Below, piece by piece: positions 6,356-43,614 of a stretch of DNA of 64,000 nucleotides; the first letter of the stretch is position 1; each line of letters starts with the position of its first letter. Source of the DNA: Vreelandella nanhaiensis. Lineage in GTDB: Bacteria > Pseudomonadota > Gammaproteobacteria > Pseudomonadales > Halomonadaceae. Both the position numbers and the translations under genes were made by a program. The DNA lies in the NCBI RefSeq assembly GCF_003990185.1, contig NZ_RZHF01000015.1, forward strand, positions 136 through 64,135, written 5' to 3'. Under the pieces are notes generated by a model. It was not told where the DNA came from and did no database searches. It saw only the letters and a program-made list of their open reading frames with translations.

Positions 6356-6378
6356 CCTTCGCCTGAGTTAGTAAGTGC

Positions 6379-7098
6379 TCACAAATCGCCGAAATAGTGC
6401 TGTAGAAGAGTTAGCGCCACGACCGGTGCCGTTTCGGTGCGTAGAACGCGCGGCCCCAAGGTCAGCGGTGTGAAGCCAGCCGCCTGGGCAGCGCCAATGT
6501 CCGCTTCGGTCAGCCCACCTTCGGGGCCGATCAGAAGCGCCGCTGAGGCGGGGCGCTCGGGTTGATCAAACGTATTACCGGTCGCCAGATGCAACATCAA
6601 ACGAAGCGGCTCCTGACGGTCGCTCAACCATTCAGCAAGCCCTACCGGCGGATGCACTACCGGCACCACCGCTCGGCCGCTTTGCTCGCAGGCACTGGCC
6701 GCCACGGCCTGCCAATGTGCAAGCTTCTTGGCTTCGCGGTCCCCTTTCAGGCGTACATCACCACGCTCGGTGTACAGCGGTGTAATGGCGGCAACTCCCA
6801 GCTCGACGGCCTTTTGGATGGCATAATCCATCCGATCGCCCTTGGAAATCGCCTGGCCCAGATGCACGGCAAAGGGCGATTCACTCGCCCCCGGCCATAC
6901 CGCATCCACCGTGGCCGTGGTGTGTTTGCGGCCCACCTCCGCCAAGTGGACGCCCGCCTCCTGGCCCTGCCCATCGAACAGCACCAGCGGCGCCCCCTCG
7001 CCCATGCGCAGCACGCGGGTTACGTGGCGCGCCGGGCCTTCTGGCAATACCACCACCTCACCGATTGTGAACGGTGCCGGCACATACAGGCGAGGCAT
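6379..7098 (-). CDS. rsmE: 16S rRNA (uridine(1498)-N(3))-methyltransferase
   Basis: SPOUT-class methyltransferase using SAM to methylate U1498 of 16S rRNA. The N-terminal PUA-like part (HVTRVLRMGEG) and the C-terminal knot are present: LLIGPEGG near residues 189-196 and LGPRVLRTETA at 214-224, the family SAM-binding signature. Starting at MPRLYVPAPFT (7098) aligns with the E. coli start and gives 239 aa (E. coli 243). An ATG at 7134, 2 nt after the secB stop, would add 12 residues and cannot be excluded. Downstream of secB on the same strand. Confidence 0.92.
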   Translation of the reverse strand: MPRLYVPAPFTIGEVVVLPEGPARHVTRVLRMGEGAPLVLFDGQGQEAGVHLAEVGRKHTTATVDAVWPGASESPFAVHLGQAISKGDRMDYAIQKAVELGVAAITPLYTERGDVRLKGDREAKKLAHWQAVAASACEQSGRAVVPVVHPPVGLAEWLSDRQEPLRLMLHLATGNTFDQPERPASAALLIGPEGGLTEADIGAAQAAGFTPLTLGPRVLRTETAPVVALTLLQHYFGDL

Positions 7099-7136
7099 CT
7101 TACCGTGCAGGGCGTACCACTCCTCGGCCTGCATGC

Positions 7137-7643
7137 TTAGTGAGTACTTGCTTCGGCTTGTTGCTGCGCTTCACGCTGCTTGCGCTGGGCGTACATGGCT
7201 TCGAAGTTCACTGGCGCCAGCATCAACGGCGGGAAGCCGCCACGGTTGACTAGGTTGTCCACACACTCACGCGCGTAGGGGAACAGCAGGTTGGGGCAGA
7301 ACGCACCCAGAGTCTGTTCCAGCTGTGCACCTTCGATACCCGAAATACGGAACAGGCCCGCCTGCTCGACTTCAGCCAGAAACGACGTAGTGCCGGTTTC
7401 GCTGTCGTTGACCTGCGCAGTTACCTTAACGACCACTTCATACTGGTCGTCAGCAATCTTGGTGCTGGTCGTGTTGAGGTCCAGGTTGACCTTGGGCTTG
7501 AATGCCTGCTTGAAAACAGACGGCGAGTTAGGCGCCTCAAACGAGATATCCTTTACATAGATACGCTGCAAAGAGAACTTCAGCTGGGGCTTGTCACCGG
7601 ACGCTGCTGCGCCCGCCTGCGGGGTATTGTTATCTTCCGCCAT
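7137..7643 (-). CDS. secB: Protein-export chaperone SecB
   Basis: Tetrameric cytoplasmic chaperone that holds preproteins unfolded for delivery to SecA. The 168-aa protein has the family core: FSLQRIYVKDISFEAPNSP, the beta-sheet block with EVVVKVTAQV, EVEQAGLFRISG, and LLFPYARECVDNLVNRGGFPPLMLAPVNF near the C-terminus. The start at 7643 is set by a strong GAGGAG 6 nt upstream; the in-frame ATG at 7664 has none. It follows the rhodanese gene, the common neighbour of secB in gammaproteobacteria. Confidence 0.95.
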   Translation of the reverse strand: MAEDNNTPQAGAAASGDKPQLKFSLQRIYVKDISFEAPNSPSVFKQAFKPKVNLDLNTTSTKIADDQYEVVVKVTAQVNDSETGTTSFLAEVEQAGLFRISGIEGAQLEQTLGAFCPNLLFPYARECVDNLVNRGGFPPLMLAPVNFEAMYAQRKQREAQQQAEASTH

Positions 7644-17504: not shown

Positions 17505-17510
17505 AGCGGG

Positions 17511-17691
17511 GTTCTCTGGGGTGTACGCCAGTCGTTATAGTCCCTCGAGCCTATGCGCAGTACCCAGGGGGCCAAATGCTAGCCAGACCCGTGTGCATGT
17601 CCGTGCGTCGGAAAGCCTGACGGTTTGGCTGCGGCCACCCACTCTGAACCAGTAGGTTCAGGGCCAGAATGACAGCGGCACTCTGGGGAAC
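17511..17691 (+). ncRNA. ssrS: 6S RNA
   Basis: The stretch between zapA and ygfA has no convincing ORF but shows the 6S layout. The 5' end (GTTCTCTGGGGTGT) and the 3' end (CGGCACTCTGGGGAAC) form the closing stem region, and both carry CTCTGGGG, as 6S termini typically do. Internally AGTCCCTCGAGCC and CTGAACCAGTAGGTTCAG (a strong hairpin) resemble the AGUCCCCUGAGCC and CUUGAACCAAGGGUUCAAG elements of E. coli 6S. The RNA mimics an open promoter and binds the sigma-70 RNA polymerase holoenzyme. Synteny zapA-ssrS-ygfA supports the call; exact ends are estimated. Confidence 0.88.
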
Positions 17692-17700
17692 ACTTTATTT

Positions 17701-18333
17701 ATGGAAAGCCTGCACGACCCTGAAGCCAAACGCGCTCTGCGTCGCCAACTGCGCCGTAAACGCTCTATACTTTCAAGGCATGAGCAGCGCCAAGCCGCGC
17801 TCAATCTTTGCCAGCAGCTCAAACGTCTCCCCGAAGTTCAGCGCGCCCGACGTATCAGCTTGTATCTGCCGGTCAACGGTGAAATCGACCCCACGCCTCT
17901 TTTACCCTGGTTTCAAAAGCGTAATGTTGATGTTTACCTGCCCGTGCTGCGCCCGTTAAGCGCTAACTCGCTCTGGTTTGTTGCCTACCACGCCCACACA
18001 CCCATGGTGAAAAACCGCTTTGGCATCCTTGAGCCTGACACCCGGTTTGCCGCTCACCGCCGCAACCGCTTGCCTGCCTGGGCGCTGGATACGCTGATCG
18101 TACCGCTGGTGGGCTTTGATGCCCAGGCAAACCGCATGGGTATGGGCGGCGGCTTTTATGACCGAAGCCTGGCCTTTATACGCCGAGGAGGCCCGGCACC
18201 TGCTTTGATTGGTGTGGCTCACGCCTGTCAGCAGGTGGACACCCTGCCCGTGGAACCCTGGGACGTGCCGCTGACCGCCGTCGCGAGCGACAGGGCCGTG
18301 GTGCGAGCAGACAAAAAAAAGAGCCGGCCCTGA
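17701..18333 (+). CDS. ygfA: 5-formyltetrahydrofolate cyclo-ligase
   Basis: A 210-aa enzyme converting 5-formyl-THF to 5,10-methenyl-THF with ATP. It has the N-terminal KRALRRQLRRKRSILSRHEQ nucleotide-binding basic region and the family signature RMGMGGGFYDRSL in the second half. It begins about 10 nt after the 6S RNA, so it is probably co-transcribed with and processed from ssrS. The last codons (ADKKKSRP) are encoded by an A-tract and one arm of a hairpin that forms an intrinsic terminator for the opposite strand; the stop codon lies in the hairpin loop. Confidence 0.92.
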   Translation: MESLHDPEAKRALRRQLRRKRSILSRHEQRQAALNLCQQLKRLPEVQRARRISLYLPVNGEIDPTPLLPWFQKRNVDVYLPVLRPLSANSLWFVAYHAHTPMVKNRFGILEPDTRFAAHRRNRLPAWALDTLIVPLVGFDAQANRMGMGGGFYDRSLAFIRRGGPAPALIGVAHACQQVDTLPVEPWDVPLTAVASDRAVVRADKKKSRP

Positions 18334-18345
18334 TGGGGTCGGCTC
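18313..18345 (-). terminator. Intrinsic terminator of the 32-aa peptide gene, embedded in the end of ygfA
   Basis: On the minus strand a 10-bp stem (arms at 18336-18345 and 18321-18330, one G-T pair) with a short loop is followed directly by eight T residues (18320-18313). This is a canonical terminator for transcription coming from the small ORF at 18390-18488. It overlaps the ygfA coding end and stop codon. Confidence 0.85.
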
Positions 18346-18389
18346 GTATCGCCTTGCGGTAAGTAGCCGCGATGCCCGTAACGTTTCGA

Positions 18390-18488
18390 TTAACTTCCCG
18401 ATAACGCCTGGGCATAGCCAGTGGCAAGTACGCCTAATAAAAACACCACTGTTAATGCCATTACCATATCAGGCTTTTTCCGCCGCAT
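18390..18488 (-). CDS. Small single-span membrane peptide, 32 aa, uncharacterised
   Basis: An unrecognised ORF with its own complete expression signals. The product starts MRRKKPDMVM, continues with a hydrophobic span (ALTVVFLLGVLATGYA, residues 11-26) and ends QALSGS. The positive N-terminus predicts insertion with the N-terminus in the cytoplasm. GGAGAG sits 5 nt before the ATG. A promoter (TTCACT, 16 bp, TATAGT) lies upstream, a hairpin is in the leader, and an intrinsic terminator follows 45 bp after the stop. It resembles small inner-membrane proteins that modulate larger membrane complexes, but no function can be assigned. A signal peptide cleaved at YAQA is an alternative reading, though it would leave almost no mature protein. 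Confidence 0.7.
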   Translation of the reverse strand: MRRKKPDMVMALTVVFLLGVLATGYAQALSGS

Positions 18489-18522
18489 GCCGACTCTCCA
18501 ACACCTTGCGCCTTTGCACTGA

Positions 18523-18553
18523 TGCATCACCTTCATCTAGAGAGGATGATGCA
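18523..18553 (-). promoter_or_regulatory. Leader hairpin of the small peptide gene
   Basis: TGCATCA at 18523-18529 and TGATGCA at 18547-18553 form a perfect 7-bp inverted repeat around a 17-nt loop in the predicted 5' untranslated region, about 35 nt before the start codon. It might affect translation or RNA stability. Confidence 0.4.
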
Positions 18554-18572
18554 CCTCATTAATTCGCAGACG

Positions 18573-18600
18573 ACTATAGGACTTTAAGGCTATCAGTGAA
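18573..18600 (-). promoter_or_regulatory. Putative promoter of the small peptide gene
   Basis: Read on the minus strand, TTCACT (18600-18595) and TATAGT (18578-18573) are separated by 16 bp, predicting a transcript start near 18566 and a leader of about 78 nt. The remaining sequence to the ilvA stop at 18710 is AT-rich and shows no ORF. Confidence 0.55.
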
Positions 18601-18709
18601 AACTGCTAAACAGATGTTTTTTGGGCCTATTTAAACGTTTAACAATTTTTAAAGGCCTGCATGTCTTTCACTGAGGCATTAGTAAGCACTCATTAATCTC
18701 TTTGAGCAA

Positions 18710-20224
18710 TTAAGCCATGAACAGCTGGTAAGCCGGGTTATCGCTTTCATGCCAATAACGGTAGCCAATGGCGTTCAGATAATCGGCTACATGGGTCTGG
18801 TCGCCGCTAGGTACCTGCATACCCACCAAGACGCGCCCGTAGGCAGCCCCATGGTTGCGATAATGGAACAGAGAAATATTCCAGTCATGGGGCAATTGAG
18901 TCAGAAAGTTCATCAGCGCCCCTGGCCGTTCAGGAAACTCAAAACGATAAAGTGCCTCTTCGAAACGCTCACTGGGTCGCCCACCGCTCAAGTGGCGAAT
19001 ATGCAGCTTGGCAAGCTCATTATCGGTCAGATCTTCAACCTGATACCCACCGTCACGCAGCTTTTCGATCACGGCCTGACGATCTTCGCCCCCTGGTTTT
19101 ACCTGCACGCCAACAAAGATATGCGCCTCCGTGCTGTCCGCGTAGCGGTAGCTGAACTCGGTGACCATGCGCTTGCCAAGCGTTCGGCAAAACTTTTTGA
19201 AGCTACCGGGCTTTTCGGCAATAGTGACGGCTAGAATGGCTTCGCGCTGCTCGCCAAGCTCGGTGCGCTCGGCAATATGCTGTAAACGGTCAAAATTGGT
19301 GTTGGCGCCTGAGTTGATGCAGAGTAGCGTTTCACCCTCGACGCCGGTTTGCTGCACATACTTTTTCAACCCGGCAAGCGAGAGAGCACCCGAGGTTTCG
19401 GCCACTGCCCGGGTATCTTCAAAGATGTCCTTGACGGCCGCGCACATCTCATCGGTATTGACCGTGATTACCTCGTCCACCAGATCCTTCACCAACATGA
19501 ACGGCACCTCACCAATCTGGGCGACCGCGACACCTTCGGCAAATACGCCGACCTGCTCCAGAACCACACGCTCATTGGCTTCAAGGGCTGCCTTGAGACA
19601 AGCACTATCCTCGGCTTCAACGCCAATGATACGGATATCAGGGCGCAGATACTTGACATAAGCCGCTACGCCCGCAATCAGCCCGCCACCACCTACCGGC
19701 ACGAAAATGGCGTCTAGCCGTCCGCTGTGCTGGCGTAGAATTTCTACCCCAATCGTGCCCTGGCCCGCGATTACGTCAATATCGTCAAAGGGTGGGATAT
19801 AGGTATAGCCATGTTCTTCCATCAGTTCATGCGCATGCTCGGCGGCGGCGGCAAACGCATCGCCTTTAAGCACTACTTTAGCCCCGCGCGCGCGCACCGC
19901 CTGCACCTTGATATCCGGCGTAATACGCGGCATGACGATTACCGCTTTTACGCCCATCAATTTGGCCGCCATGGCAAGCCCTTGGGCATGATTACCCGCC
20001 GAGGCGGCAATTACGCCCTTGGCTTTCTGCTCCTCAGTAAGCTGGGCCATCTTGTTGTACGCGCCGCGTATCTTGAAGGAGAACACGGGCTGCAGATCTT
20101 CACGCTTAATCAAAATCTGATTGTTAAAGCGACGCGACAAAAAGGGAGCGGGAGAAATCGGGGTCTCACAGGCGGCTTCATAAACGTTGGCCTGGAGAAT
20201 CTTTTTGACGGTAGCTTCAAGCAT
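18710..20224 (-). CDS. ilvA: Threonine ammonia-lyase, biosynthetic
   Basis: PLP enzyme making 2-oxobutanoate from threonine, first step of isoleucine synthesis. The 504-aa protein (E. coli 514) has the PLP lysine at residue 51 in FSFKIRGAYNKM, the phosphate-binding VGGGGLIAG loop, and a C-terminal regulatory half with two ACT-like domains (ILAVTIAEKPGSFKKFC and FEFPERPGALMNFL). This indicates the isoleucine-inhibited anabolic form. ATG 20224 is preferred over a TTG at 20236. It stands alone, with no ilv neighbours. Confidence 0.94.
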   Translation of the reverse strand: MLEATVKKILQANVYEAACETPISPAPFLSRRFNNQILIKREDLQPVFSFKIRGAYNKMAQLTEEQKAKGVIAASAGNHAQGLAMAAKLMGVKAVIVMPRITPDIKVQAVRARGAKVVLKGDAFAAAAEHAHELMEEHGYTYIPPFDDIDVIAGQGTIGVEILRQHSGRLDAIFVPVGGGGLIAGVAAYVKYLRPDIRIIGVEAEDSACLKAALEANERVVLEQVGVFAEGVAVAQIGEVPFMLVKDLVDEVITVNTDEMCAAVKDIFEDTRAVAETSGALSLAGLKKYVQQTGVEGETLLCINSGANTNFDRLQHIAERTELGEQREAILAVTIAEKPGSFKKFCRTLGKRMVTEFSYRYADSTEAHIFVGVQVKPGGEDRQAVIEKLRDGGYQVEDLTDNELAKLHIRHLSGGRPSERFEEALYRFEFPERPGALMNFLTQLPHDWNISLFHYRNHGAAYGRVLVGMQVPSGDQTHVADYLNAIGYRYWHESDNPAYQLFMA

Positions 20225-20309
20225 GCGGGTATCCAAAACGTGTGGTTAAGACGCGAACAAAGCCTGTATTGGTAGCAGATTACGCCTACCGACGTCTACC
20301 GTGTTTCCA

Positions 20310-20376: not shown

Positions 20377-21051
20377 ATGACGCAAGATGAACTCAAGGCC
20401 GCCGTGGCCGATGCGGCTATCAAAGAGATCGAATCAAAACTTGAGAAAGACACCGTACTGGGTATCGGCACCGGTTCAACGGCCAACCTGTTTATTGACC
20501 GCTTAGAGCCGCTGCGCGACCGCTTCAAGGGTGCGGTGGCAAGCTCGGAAGCCAGCGCCAAGCGTCTGGAGGGCCTGGGTATTGAGGTATTCGAGCTCAA
20601 CAGCGTGGGCACGGTGCCTTTCTACATCGATGGCGCAGACGAAGTGAATACTCACTTACATATGATAAAGGGCGGTGGTGCTGCGCTTACCCGTGAGAAA
20701 ATTGTCGCTGCGTGCGCCGAGCGTTTCATCTGTATTGCCGATGGCTCAAAGCACGTCACCACGCTGGGTGAGTTTCCCCTGCCGGTCGAGGTCATTCCCA
20801 TGGCGCGCTCCTATGTGGCGCGTGAACTGGTGAAAATGGGTGCTGATCCGGTTTATCGCCAAGGCGTAGTAACCGACAACGGCAATCATATTATCGATTG
20901 CTATGACTTCATGATCACCGATCCGGTGGCCATGGAAGCTCGAATTAATGCCATTGTCGGCGTGGTGACCAACGGTCTTTTTGCCGCACGCGGCGCGGAT
21001 ATATTGCTGCTAGGTAAAGAGAATGGCGTCGAACGTGTGGCCCTGCGCTAA
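20377..21051 (+). CDS. rpiA: Ribose-5-phosphate isomerase A
   Basis: Interconverts ribose-5-phosphate and ribulose-5-phosphate in the pentose phosphate pathway. The 224-aa protein (E. coli 219) opens [14 protein letters not shown] and has the [11 protein letters not shown] phosphate loop, the [10 protein letters not shown] segment with the active-site aspartates, and [14 protein letters not shown]. It is divergent from ilvA and overlaps the end of waaA on the opposite strand by 4 bp. Confidence 0.96.
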
Positions 21052-22337
21052 GCGTTGAGCAGTGCCTCAAGGCCATCAAGGGTGCGGCCTAGTGCCCCTT
21101 GGTGTGCCTTGATTACGGCAATCCCAGCAAGCCCCTCTTCTACCCCCCGTTCCGGGTCATCAAAACGGGCGCCAAGGGCATGAACGAGCGCATCGGTACT
21201 CTCTACCAGCGTTAGCGCCCCAGCAGTTTGTAGTGGTTCAACCACGTCAGCAAAATTTTCGACAAAGGGGCCGCTGAGTACGGGTTTACCAAGGGCCGCC
21301 GGTTCAAGCACATTGTGCCCGCCTAACGGCACTAGGCTACCGCCTACGAAGGCTACGTGGCCAGCGCCATACAGTATACCAAGCTCTCCCAGCGTATCGC
21401 CTAGATAGACCTGGGTCGCTTGCGTGACGGGCTCTCCTTGGCTGCGTCGGCTGCTCACCCATCCCTGCGCCTGGCAAAGGGCGGCTACCTCGTCAAAGCG
21501 TTGAGGGTGGCGTGGTGCGATAATCAACAGCGCATCCGGATAGCGGCAAAGCAACTGGCGATGAGCTTCAAGCAACAGGACTTCTTCGCCATCCCGTGTT
21601 GAGCCCGCCACCCATATGGGTCGATCGCCCCAAGCCTCCCGCAAATGCCCACTTTCAGAAAATGTACCCTGTGTGCTTGCAAACTCGAACTTCAGCGACC
21701 CGACTACAGCGGTTTTTTCCGGCGCGCAGCCAAGTGCTACAAACCGCTCGGCATCGGCTTGCGATTTGGCCGCCAGCCAATTGACGTTGGCAAGCGCGTC
21801 AGCCATTAGCGGGGCGATTTTCTGATAGCGACTGAACGCCCTGGGCGATAGCCGCCCGTTAACCACGGCAACCGGGATATCAAAGCGCCTGCAAGCGTGA
21901 AGCACGTTGGGCCAAAGCTCGGTTTCAAACATGATCGCAAGCGCGGGTTTTACACGACGCACAAAACGCCTGGCCGCACCGGGAAAATCCAGGGGTAAAA
22001 AGCAGTGGGCAATTCGCGCCTGATGGAAGGGCTGCTGCTTAATCAGCGCCTGAGCCTGCTGGGCGCCTGTGGCAGTCATGGTGGTAAGCAGTAGGCTGTG
22101 GTGAGAGTAACGCGCCAACAGCGCCTCAATCAGTGGGCGAGCGGCATGCACCTCGCCTACCGAGGCACAGTGCAGCCAGAGGCGCGGTCTGGCAGGCAGC
22201 TCCCCCAGGCGCGTCCCTAACCGCTGCCATCGTGAGTAAGTGGGCACTTGCTCACGCCAGATGCGCCAGCCAATCAACGGTACAAGCGCATAGAGCGCCG
22301 CCGAATAGCCAAGCCGCGGCCAACTGATTCGCCCCAT
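21048..22337 (-). CDS. waaA: 3-deoxy-D-manno-octulosonic acid transferase
   Basis: Adds Kdo from CMP-Kdo to lipid A precursor at the inner membrane, cytoplasmic face. The 429-aa GT30 protein has an N-terminal membrane-anchoring segment (about residues 8-24), [13 protein letters not shown] with the catalytic base Glu62, the FETELWPN motif and [12 protein letters not shown]. The start shares one base with the hldE stop (TAATG). The adjacent kdkA gene suggests that Kdo is phosphorylated here, as in organisms with a single Kdo, but whether this WaaA adds one or two Kdo units cannot be told. Confidence 0.94.
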
Positions 22338-23767
22338 TAGCCTTCGCGGTCCAGAATGGAGCTGATCATGGCGGTCGTGGAGACGCCATCTTCAAAGCCC
22401 AGCACCTTGACCTCGCCGCCGTTGGCTCGTACGGCCTCGCCCCCGGCGATATCGTCAGGATGGTAATCGCCTCCTTTGACCAGGATATCCGGCAGCACAG
22501 CTTCAATCAGCGCCTGGGGTGTGTCATCACTAAACGGCACCACCCAGTCTACCGCACCCAAGCCTGCCAGCACCTGCATGCGCCGGTTAAGCGGGTTAAT
22601 GGGCCGCTTGGGCCCTTTCAGGCGGCCGATCGATGCATCGTCATTAACCGCCACGATCAGGCGGTCGCCGAGACGCTTGGCCTGTTCCAGGTAAGCCACG
22701 TGCCCGGCATGCAGGATATCAAAGCAGCCGTTGGTCATGACCACCCGCTCGCCACGCAGCTGGGCGGCGCGCACTGCGTCAACCAGCAGCGCCTGCTCAA
22801 TCACGCCGAACTCGGCGAGTTTGTCGCCATGCAGTGCGGTGTACAGCTCGGCCACTGACAATGTGGCGGTACCCGGCTTGGCGACCACCAGCCCAGCCCC
22901 CAGGTTAGCTAGCATCATGGCTTCCGGCAGCGCGTGACCTGCGGCCAGCGCCAAGCCCATCAAACCGATGACCGTATCACCGGCCCCGGTGACATCGAAA
23001 ACTTCCTGGGCGCGCGTGGGCAGATGGATGGGTGGCTGGCCTGCGCAAATTAGGGTCATGCCTTTTTCACTACGTGTGATTAGAAGCGCTTCCAGCTCAA
23101 GCTCGGCGCGCAGCGCTTCACCGCGTTTGGCAAGCTCAGCATCGCTCGCACAATGGCCCACTACGGCTTCAAATTCGGTAAGGTTGGGGGTAATCAGGTT
23201 TGCCCCCCGGTATTTGGTGAAGTCCTGCCCTTTAGGGTCAATAAGAACGCGTTTACCGTGAGCGCGTGCCTGAGCAATCAGCCGTTCAACCTGATTGAGC
23301 GTGCCTTTACCGTAGTCGGAAAGGATGACGATATCGCAGTCGACCAAGGCCTTTTCTACCTGACCCACCAAGCCGGAGGTGTCTACCTTATCCAGGTGCT
23401 GCTCAAAATCCAGACGCAGTAACTGCTGGTTACGGCTCATGACGCGCAGCTTGGTTATCGTAGGTATATCGGCGCTGCGCTGAAAGTAAGTACTTACATC
23501 AGCGGTATGCAGACAAGCCTCCAGCAGGTTGGCATTTTCGTCGTCACCAACCACGCCTGCCAGGGCCGCATGCCCGCCCAGTGAAGCGACATTAAGTGCC
23601 ACGTTGGCTGCGCCGCCCGGGCGGTCGTCCGCCTCTTCTACCCGCACGACCGGTACTGGCGCTTCCGGTGAAATACGCGACGTTCCGCCGTGCCAGTAAC
23701 GGTCCAGCATAACGTCGCCTACGACCAATACATGGGCATGTTCAAGAGCGGTTAAATCAACTTTCAT
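22337..23767 (-). CDS. hldE: Bifunctional heptose 7-phosphate kinase / heptose 1-phosphate adenylyltransferase
   Basis: Makes ADP-D-glycero-D-manno-heptose for the LPS core together with GmhB and HldD, both in this window. The 476-aa protein has an N-terminal ribokinase-type kinase ([23 protein letters not shown], and TGAGD at about 260-264) and a C-terminal cytidylyltransferase-like domain with [10 protein letters not shown] (HAGH at 353-356). The start at 23767 aligns exactly with E. coli HldE. It overlaps the upstream glycosyltransferase by 11 bp and waaA by one base. Confidence 0.96.
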
Positions 23768-42150: not shown

Positions 42151-43614
42151 TTAGCTTGTTAATAGGCGCAGCAGATTTTTATAATCTTCGCGAATATCCG
42201 CGCTTTCCTCTTGCAGGGCTTTTACCTTGCGGCAGGCATGCAACACTGTTGTGTGATCACGACCGCCAAATGCATCGCCGATTTCCGGCAAACTGTGGTT
42301 GGTCAGTTCCTTGGCCAAGGCCATGGCCACCTGCCGAGGACGCGCCACTGAACGTGAGCGCCGCTTCGATAGTAAATCCGCGACCTTAATCTTGTAATAC
42401 TCGGCTACCGTGCGCTGAATATTATCCACACCCACCTGCTTGTCTTGAAGGGCAAGCAGGTCCTTTAACGACTCACGGATAAAGTCCTGGTTAATAGGCT
42501 TACCCATAAAGTGCGAGTCGGCAATGACCTTCTTCAGAGCGCCTTCGAGTTCACGCACGTTGGAGCGGATTTTCTGAGCAATAAAGAAAGCAGCATCATG
42601 GGGCAGATCGACCTTGGCCTGGTCGGCTTTCTTCATCAAGATGGCCACTCGGGTCTCAAGCTCCGGCGGCTCGATCGCCACCGTCAAACCCCATCCAAAG
42701 CGCGACTTCAGGCGCTCCTCGACACCACTGATCTCCTTTGGATAACGATCAGAGGTAAGGATCATCTGCTGGCCACCTTCCAATAATGCATTGAACGTGT
42801 GGAAAAACTCTTCTTGAGAGCGCTCCTTGCCAGCAAAAAACTGAATATCATCAATAAGTAAAGCATCAACGCTTCGATAGAAGCGCTTGAAATCGTTGAT
42901 CGCGTTAAGCTGAAGCGCCTTGACCATATCCGCAACAAAACGCTCTGAATGCAGGTAAACCACCCGGGCATTTTCCCGGCGGCCAGCCAGCGCATTACCC
43001 ACCGCATGCATTAAGTGCGTTTTACCCAGACCTACCCCGCCGTAGAGAAACAAGGGGTTATAGGCACCGCCCGGGTTCTCCGAGACCTGCCGAGAAGCCG
43101 CCCGGGCCAGTTGGTTGGATTTACCTTCAACAAAGGTATCAAACGTAAAATTCGGATTAAGTCCACTGCCGTGCTTGAGGCTACCTTCGACTTGCACCTG
43201 ACGCTCATTGGTACGCCGACGTGGCGCTTCTTCACGCTCACGCAGCTGGTCGATCTCACGCTCATCGGCAATATCTCCACGCGGAGGTGTATGCACAGAA
43301 GGCGCAGAGGTGGCGGCGGAAACCGGATTGCCCAAATCACGTGGTTGAGGCGCAGGTGCCGCCGGGCGGCGGCTACCAACGGTCAGACTTACCTTGGGTG
43401 GTTTAGACGGCGCAAGCTCACGAATCAGCTCACTGATCCGCTTGGCGTACTTGTCACTCACCCAGTCGCGCACAAAGCGGTTAGGCGCCAGTAAGCGCAG
43501 CTCATTGGACTCTCCTTCTTCTGCCTGCAAGGGACGTATCCAGGTATTGAATTGTTGTGAATTCAATTCGTCCTGCAGGTAGTCCAGGCACTGTTGCCAA
43601 AGCGCGAGTGACAC
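42151..43614 (-). CDS. dnaA: Chromosomal replication initiator protein DnaA
   Basis: AAA+ initiator, 487 aa, GTG start with GGTGAG upstream. Domain I ([25 protein letters not shown]) is at the N-terminus, a low-complexity linker at about 80-150, then domain III with Walker A GGVGLGKT at 192-199 and Walker [14 protein letters not shown]. Domain IV has the box-binding helix-turn-helix [15 protein letters not shown]. The promoter region contains a DnaA box overlapping the predicted -35, so autoregulation is likely. Confidence 0.98.

Follow-up and report, generated by a model that had tools for sequence, protein, structure and literature searches.

Families of small membrane proteins with a single span are not rare. 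CydX, CcoM, AcrZ, KdpF and MgrB are subunits or regulators of 30-50 residues with one membrane helix, conserved and often left without annotation, and CydX, AcrZ and KdpF adjust the activity or assembly of their larger membrane complexes. The gene described here originates from a 64,000-nucleotide stretch of Vreelandella nanhaiensis DNA (the window, i.e. the whole stretch that was analyzed) and encodes a protein of the same general plan. It differs from them in having no sequence match in the PDB, in a K-P-D cap at the N-terminus and in the absence of membrane-complex genes alongside it at the loci examined. Accounts of CydX and AcrZ as single-span small membrane proteins are found in the consulted sections of PMC4325964 and PMC7267776, and of CcoM and MgrB in those of PMC10433244 and PMC12501420, respectively.

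The neighborhood of the small gene is that of the zapB-zapA-ssrS-ygfA-EVE array of beta- and gammaproteobacteria, in which ilvA and rpiA are frequent neighbors, as given in the consulted sections of PMC7641849. Those sections do not mention a small membrane protein, and the word 'transmembrane' is absent from the main text. By proteogenomics, 16 novel small proteins were reported for P. stutzeri (Stutzerimonas), membrane fractions not being analyzed (PMC10433244, sections consulted). The present family has members in Stutzerimonas, the study organism of that work; the strings MKRKPD and KPD are absent from its main text, and the family may sit in the supplementary tables. The small protein is likewise not mentioned in the consulted sections of PMC9788540, PMC8545117, PMC12501420 and PMC10903887. 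In our literature search no title or opening of an abstract described it, and the only match to the peptide string was one unrelated insect paper. What we present is a widespread family of small membrane proteins for which no description was found in the literature searched, and whose members may well stand in databases as hypothetical proteins.

Architecture of the locus

The small gene lies on the minus strand in a compact unit that runs from 18602 to 18313 and comprises a promoter, a leader hairpin, a ribosome binding site, an ORF of 32 codons and a terminator (Table 1); the encoded peptide is MRRKKPDMVMALTVVFLLGVLATGYAQALSGS. Its upstream neighbor ilvA presumably encodes threonine dehydratase. 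For ygfA, a P. aeruginosa relative of the window gene matches the Pfam family 5-FTHF_cyc-lig. In the window the 3' end of the unit overlaps ygfA by 21 bases (18313-18333), and the T run together with part of the terminator stem coincides with the last codons of ygfA. The 6S RNA is the only Rfam family to reach its gathering score in the window; a search of 18290-18720 (E≤1) yielded one weak match: SpF22 (0.041) falls far short of its gathering score and is located upstream of the predicted transcript start.

Table 1. Features of the small gene and its surroundings, in window coordinates.
Feature	Position	Strand	Basis
-35 element TTTTCA (TTGTCA in most relatives)	18597..18602	-	scan and genus alignment
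-10 element TATAGT	18573..18578	-	scan and genus alignment
Transcript start, predicted	near 18566	-	inferred
Leader hairpin, 11-pair stem with covariation	18521..18555	-	folding and covariation
Ribosome binding site TTGGAGAG	18494..18501	-	sequence; GGAG kept in genus
ORF, 32 codons and stop, small single-pass membrane protein, N-terminal K-P-D motif	18390..18488	-	
Terminator stem-loop, 6+3 pairs	18321..18345	-	folding and genus alignment
Terminator T run, eight T	18313..18320	-	overlaps 3' end of ygfA CDS
ygfA, 5-formyltetrahydrofolate cyclo-ligase, tail-to-tail neighbor	17701..18333	+	named by resemblance
ilvA, same-strand upstream neighbor of the small gene	18710..20236	-	
6S RNA (Rfam RF00013), 5' of ygfA, context only	17510..17693	+	Rfam

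The promoter scan gave two candidates for the -35 element, TTCACT with a 16-base spacer, which a preliminary description of this DNA had proposed, and TTTTCA with an 18-base spacer. As the aligned genus loci (25 of 48) place the conserved hexamer, TTGTCA, on the window TTTTCA with its 18-base spacer, TTCACT was ruled out. The -10 element of the same description was confirmed: TATAGT is found at most 200 nt upstream of the ORF in 75 of 75 scored genus loci, and in 63 of these the best-scoring -35 element is TTGTCA at a spacing of 17 or 18, the other 12 having weaker hexamers. Conservation also extends beyond the paired stem: positions 18556-18565, which separate the -10 element from the hairpin, read GAATTAATG in the window and GAAATTAATG in many of its relatives, and may serve as an operator or as a signal at the 5' end of the RNA.

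The leader hairpin, originally described as a perfect stem of 7 bp, is present but extends over 11 pairs, and folding of the 61-nt leader gave a z of -3.8. Within the covariation set, 19 of the 25 species in the genus alignment, 92.3% of the cells are paired as opposed to 84.1% in shuffles, 7 of the 11 pairs are changed on both sides (4.4 in shuffles, with 7 reached in 23 of 500), and 20 cells carry a change on both sides, compared with 6.6. As these shuffles ignore relatedness, sliding the partner strand of the stem is the better control; it lowers pairing to 18-50%, in a comparison that favors the unslid version by taking the structure from one alignment row. The leader hairpin covaries, and the leader stem is under selection as well as the peptide.

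The ORF begins with the ATG at 18488, preceded by TTGGAGA at 18501-18495, and the ribosome binding site recognized in the preliminary description is well supported by the genus, where GGAG occurs in the 16 nt before the start codon at 75 of 75 loci. A longer frame of 48 residues starting from 18536 was ruled out, its upstream stretch varying by indels in relatives.

The terminator, earlier considered a textbook case, is present. A strict terminator scan found nothing at the locus, but folding revealed the stem, with its pairs arranged around one mismatch, and the eight T that follow. By eye, 24 of the 25 aligned genus species (all but L013) show a stem accompanied by a T-rich run, with altered bases on both arms; in several relatives the shared stem shows, again by eye, an A run before and a T run after it. 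Such a bidirectional-looking terminator may serve both ygfA and the small gene, and alone could hold the two genes tail to tail. Between ilvA and the promoter of the small gene the scan, which also missed the real terminator, found no intrinsic terminator, and transcription of ilvA may read through into the small gene. The proposed self-contained unit holds in that the gene has its own promoter and terminator, but is qualified by this possible read-through and by the overlap of stem and T run with the end of ygfA.

Two further observations concern the surroundings. A palindrome similar to GTRAGYRCTYACTNAC, which resembles the site of SlmA (nucleoid occlusion), is found just after ilvA (18678-18697), where by eye it is kept in the genus alignment, and recurs at 6367-6386, 7136-7155, 20640-20659, 22232-22255 and 23482-23501. 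At up to 3 mismatches the window contains 30 matches, many of them one site counted on both strands, against 10.1 expected, and none of 100 shuffles reaches 30; in the whole genome there are 12 matches at up to 1 mismatch, four of them on the contig of the window, versus 0 for the backwards pattern. A DnaA-like P-loop motif (GVGLGKTH) was seen at 43041 on the minus strand, with several TTATCCACA sites between 42422 and 47698; judged by these motifs, the window probably spans the replication origin, at about 25 kb from the small gene. Contig 1 of several genomes of the family carries the small gene at around 22-28 kb.

Purifying selection on the ORF

Across 68 distinct genus sequences the ORF shows a pN/pS of 0.124 (pS 0.63, pN 0.078), while the other five frames yield 1.4, 3.0, 1.6, 0.25 and 4.1, four of them exceeding 1. 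The single low value belongs to an antisense frame and is expected, because the third codon positions of both frames coincide there. A first genus estimate from the 48 best-scoring of 76 loci had been 0.10, and adding the other 28 raised it to 0.12. For Pseudomonas and Stutzerimonas, a core of 22 codons (66 distinct sequences from the best 80 of at least 508 loci) gave 0.122, with the other five frames of the same loci ranging from 0.31 to 10.9 and four of the five exceeding 1. The expectation that the ORF would be intact in relatives was borne out: the 32-codon frame is open in 76 of 76 genus genomes, without stops or frameshifts, in 75 by pattern and in one (L232, left out of the pN/pS and promoter counts) by hand. 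The ORF is under strong purifying selection that acts on codons, and the small gene is a genuine, conserved gene of the chromosome with a promoter and a terminator to itself.

Motif and predicted structure of the peptide

The members follow a common plan, with a K/R-K-P-D cap at the N-terminus, one hydrophobic helix with conserved positions and a variable tail. Lengths range from 29 to 64 aa in the order-level set, with some longer frames beyond the order. In the 43 segments left by clustering at 70% identity, a set that includes the mis-anchored L110 and leaves L109 (no anchor) and L114 (too short) outside, the P and D of the motif are each kept in 42, the K or R before the P in 39, the helix G and the T/S in 41 each, the L in 32, the V in 30 and the F in only 19. 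Conservation tracks the periodicity of a helix (100-degree moment, p=0.017 by permutation, a modest value from one test), and the conserved L, F, G, V and T/S share one face. AlphaFold2 models one helix for residues 8-31 with a mean pLDDT of 90, a helix being its answer for almost any sequence of such kind, and hydropathy rises to 2.1 over 19 residues. The peptide thus shows one hydrophobic helix flanked by charges, the structure of a single-pass small membrane protein.

The window peptide has no match in Pfam or NCBIfam (up to E 10) or in PHROGs (up to E 1). The other 29 profile members produced nothing in these three libraries besides scattered weak matches, the best being 0.014, 0.0071 and 0.0051, respectively. 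A search of the PDB up to E 10 returned four sequences, PsbI as the best at 0.7 and PsbL for the rest, with CydX, CcoM, AcrZ and KdpF absent. With no significant match in Pfam, NCBIfam, PHROGs or the PDB, the initial view still stands: the gene looks expressed, and its product is a membrane peptide with one span that belongs to no recognized family.

Distribution of the family

A first search of the genus found the small gene in 37 of 37 genomes, its own included, and at the family level 246 of 250 genomes match the window peptide alone. Among the four misses, G082 has a short member, MQKKPDVMVLLVLVFVAGLVVTSLI (L114, 25 aa), that the profile located between ygfA and ilvA. In G069 and G175, whose loci are L112 and L113, only about 30 and 73 bases separate the end of the ilvA profile match from that of ygfA; the small gene is deleted there, and the window peptide has no match elsewhere in these two genomes. 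The fourth miss is a 77% complete genome without an ilvA match beside ygfA. As two family genomes are without it, the small gene is not essential everywhere.

A seven-member profile detected the family in 201 of 390 order genomes at E≤0.1, covering 86 of 142 genera, and in 139 of the 390 below E 1e-5. At the level of the class, a 30-member profile matched 49 of 369 genomes at E≤0.01, and 37 below 1e-3 by hand count; in three of these 37 (G685, G928 and G942) the match begins at profile position 6 or 8 and leaves K-P-D uncovered, and in the G942 locus L109 K-P-D is absent. A reversed-profile control matched 3 of the 369 class genomes, with a best E of 0.0023, and since it gave none below 0.002 most of the class matches below 1e-3 are credible. 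A spread beyond the class was not accepted: among 249 phylum genomes there were two outside matches (E 1.3e-4 and 5.9e-4), which begin only past the K-P-D positions, and we do not trust them. With a 49-aa Stutzerimonas member as the query at least 508 encoding stretches were found, the best 80 of which are from Pseudomonas and Stutzerimonas, including P. aeruginosa PA7, P. putida strains and P. avellanae. No plasmid copy of the PA7 member was detected in 72,556 plasmid records (tblastn, E≤0.01). As shown by these searches, the family is widespread in Gammaproteobacteria, Pseudomonas included.

Gene neighborhood

In the genus, ygfA stands tail to tail with the small gene at 47 of 48 loci (L013 is without ygfA within 1.5 kb), and ilvA is present at 48 of 48. 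We further studied 26 loci of the order outside the family, chosen as search matches and spread over families, so that only their neighbors are a result: ygfA is tail to tail at all 26, with 1-1.8 kb between in L054 and L076, and a same-strand upstream ilvA lies within the stretch examined at 16. For the best 80 of at least 508 loci from Pseudomonas and Stutzerimonas, ygfA is found tail to tail at 80 and ilvA at 0 within the stretch examined. Homologs, synteny with ygfA and ilvA, and an excess of synonymous changes, the checks suggested in the preliminary description, were each looked for and found.

Outside the order, 11 of 26 class loci have ygfA tail to tail. Other loci have ksgA in this orientation (L098 by eye; L105, L107 and L110 by Pfam RrnaAD), have the small gene downstream of a glycerate-kinase-like gene that shares its strand (L097, L101 and L102; Pfam DUF4147 and MOFRL), or have a transaldolase nearby (L099, L103 and L104; Pfam TAL_FSA), and an EVE gene is near L091. 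Inspection of ten class loci with flanks of up to 5 kb showed ygfA only at L211, where it was already known. The loci linked to ksgA and to the glycerate-kinase-like gene suggest sub-families.

In P. aeruginosa PA7 (L187, 2358-3794) the small gene, encoded on the opposite strand, separates ygfA from the EVE gene, which is divergent on its far side. Unlike in the published array, ygfA and EVE are thus not simply consecutive, and this arrangement qualifies the published view of them as one operon. In every ygfA-linked locus examined the small gene is on the strand opposite to ygfA. The neighbors at the loci examined were ygfA, ilvA, zapA or EVE, and at these loci the small gene is not encoded with membrane-complex genes. 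The suggested tie to 6S RNA or to stationary phase is not supported, as the gene sits elsewhere in other lineages and on the opposite strand wherever it is ygfA-linked. Its position apart from 6S and ygfA in several lineages argues against a functional link, provided that the distant proteins are true relatives. We propose that the small gene stands by ygfA and 6S RNA through inherited gene order and a terminator that in several relatives looks two-way, not through shared function.

Predicted function and alternative readings

For the function of the peptide, we see about an even chance, as judged from sequence, that it crosses the inner membrane once and modulates a larger membrane complex by binding to it. 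According to the positive-inside rule, lysines and arginines would keep the N-terminus cytoplasmic and the variable tail would face the periplasm, while the conserved face of the helix would pack on a larger integral membrane protein or complex, and this docking would adjust the activity or assembly of the predicted partner. Some small subunits of respiratory or transport complexes are encoded apart from their complex. The leader hairpin would most likely shield the short mRNA or tune its translation.

The main alternative, which we consider unlikely, is that the helix is a signal peptide cut after Y-A-Q-A, which in the window peptide is followed by L-S-G-S, with a short product that is periplasmic or released, or is the membrane fragment itself. 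The positive N-terminus and a hydrophobic core of about 16 residues are in line with export, as are small residues of the kind that signal peptidase I prefers at -3/-1, which at the best position occur in 29 of 42 segments (L110 left out), including 9 with strict AxA. Nevertheless, the would-be signal part is conserved and the would-be mature part variable or missing, contrary to what ordinary exported proteins show; an acidic residue stands directly ahead of the hydrophobic core, which is unusual for a signal peptide, and the conservation is periodic along the helix.

The preliminary description also considered a regulatory RNA that in addition encodes a peptide, and the hairpin leader leaves room for this, although selection acts on the peptide. 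That the transcript is mainly a regulatory RNA, acting through the covarying hairpin or the 3' overlap with ygfA and yielding the peptide as a second product, seems rather unlikely to us. The covariation of the stem in 19 species and the 21 shared bases would suit such a role, but against it stand the selection on codons, the lack of an Rfam family that fits the transcript, the retention of the gene where the neighbor is not ygfA, and the 121 nt before the PA7 member, which fold like shuffles (z -0.8) and yet the peptide is kept. Decidedly improbable, in our estimate, are processed micro-peptides throughout the Gammaproteobacteria, in which signal peptidase I would cut at an A-x-A-like site and the conserved K-P-D membrane fragment, not the tail, would be active.

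A small hydrophobic peptide with a structured leader, its own promoter and its own terminator also recalls a type I toxin under the control of an antisense RNA, which read-through from ygfA could supply, and tandem, diverged copies exist in two order loci (L061, 3001-3416, and L071, 2977-3324). Type I toxins are usually patchy in their spread and multicopy, whereas nearly all family genomes have this gene, as a single match in every matching genome except G158 with 3, and it is under strong purifying selection; moreover, a scan of 17800-19100 found no promoter-like site on the plus strand. We regard a toxin as very improbable; neither it nor the RNA-only reading agrees well with the spread or with the codon evidence. 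A chance ORF downstream of ilvA, conceivable for a short frame of 32 codons into which ilvA possibly reads through, is ruled out by coding conservation, in addition to homologs across genus, family and order, the covariation of the leader and the conserved promoter, and the preliminary description was right in calling chance unlikely.

Implications

A deeply conserved gene, present also in P. aeruginosa, thus lies outside the family libraries searched. In Pseudomonas, the zapA-6S-ygfA-EVE array is to be read differently, with a gene on the opposite strand between ygfA and EVE. As for the predicted membrane protein itself, its retention in nearly all of the family under strong selection suggests a basic role in the membrane.
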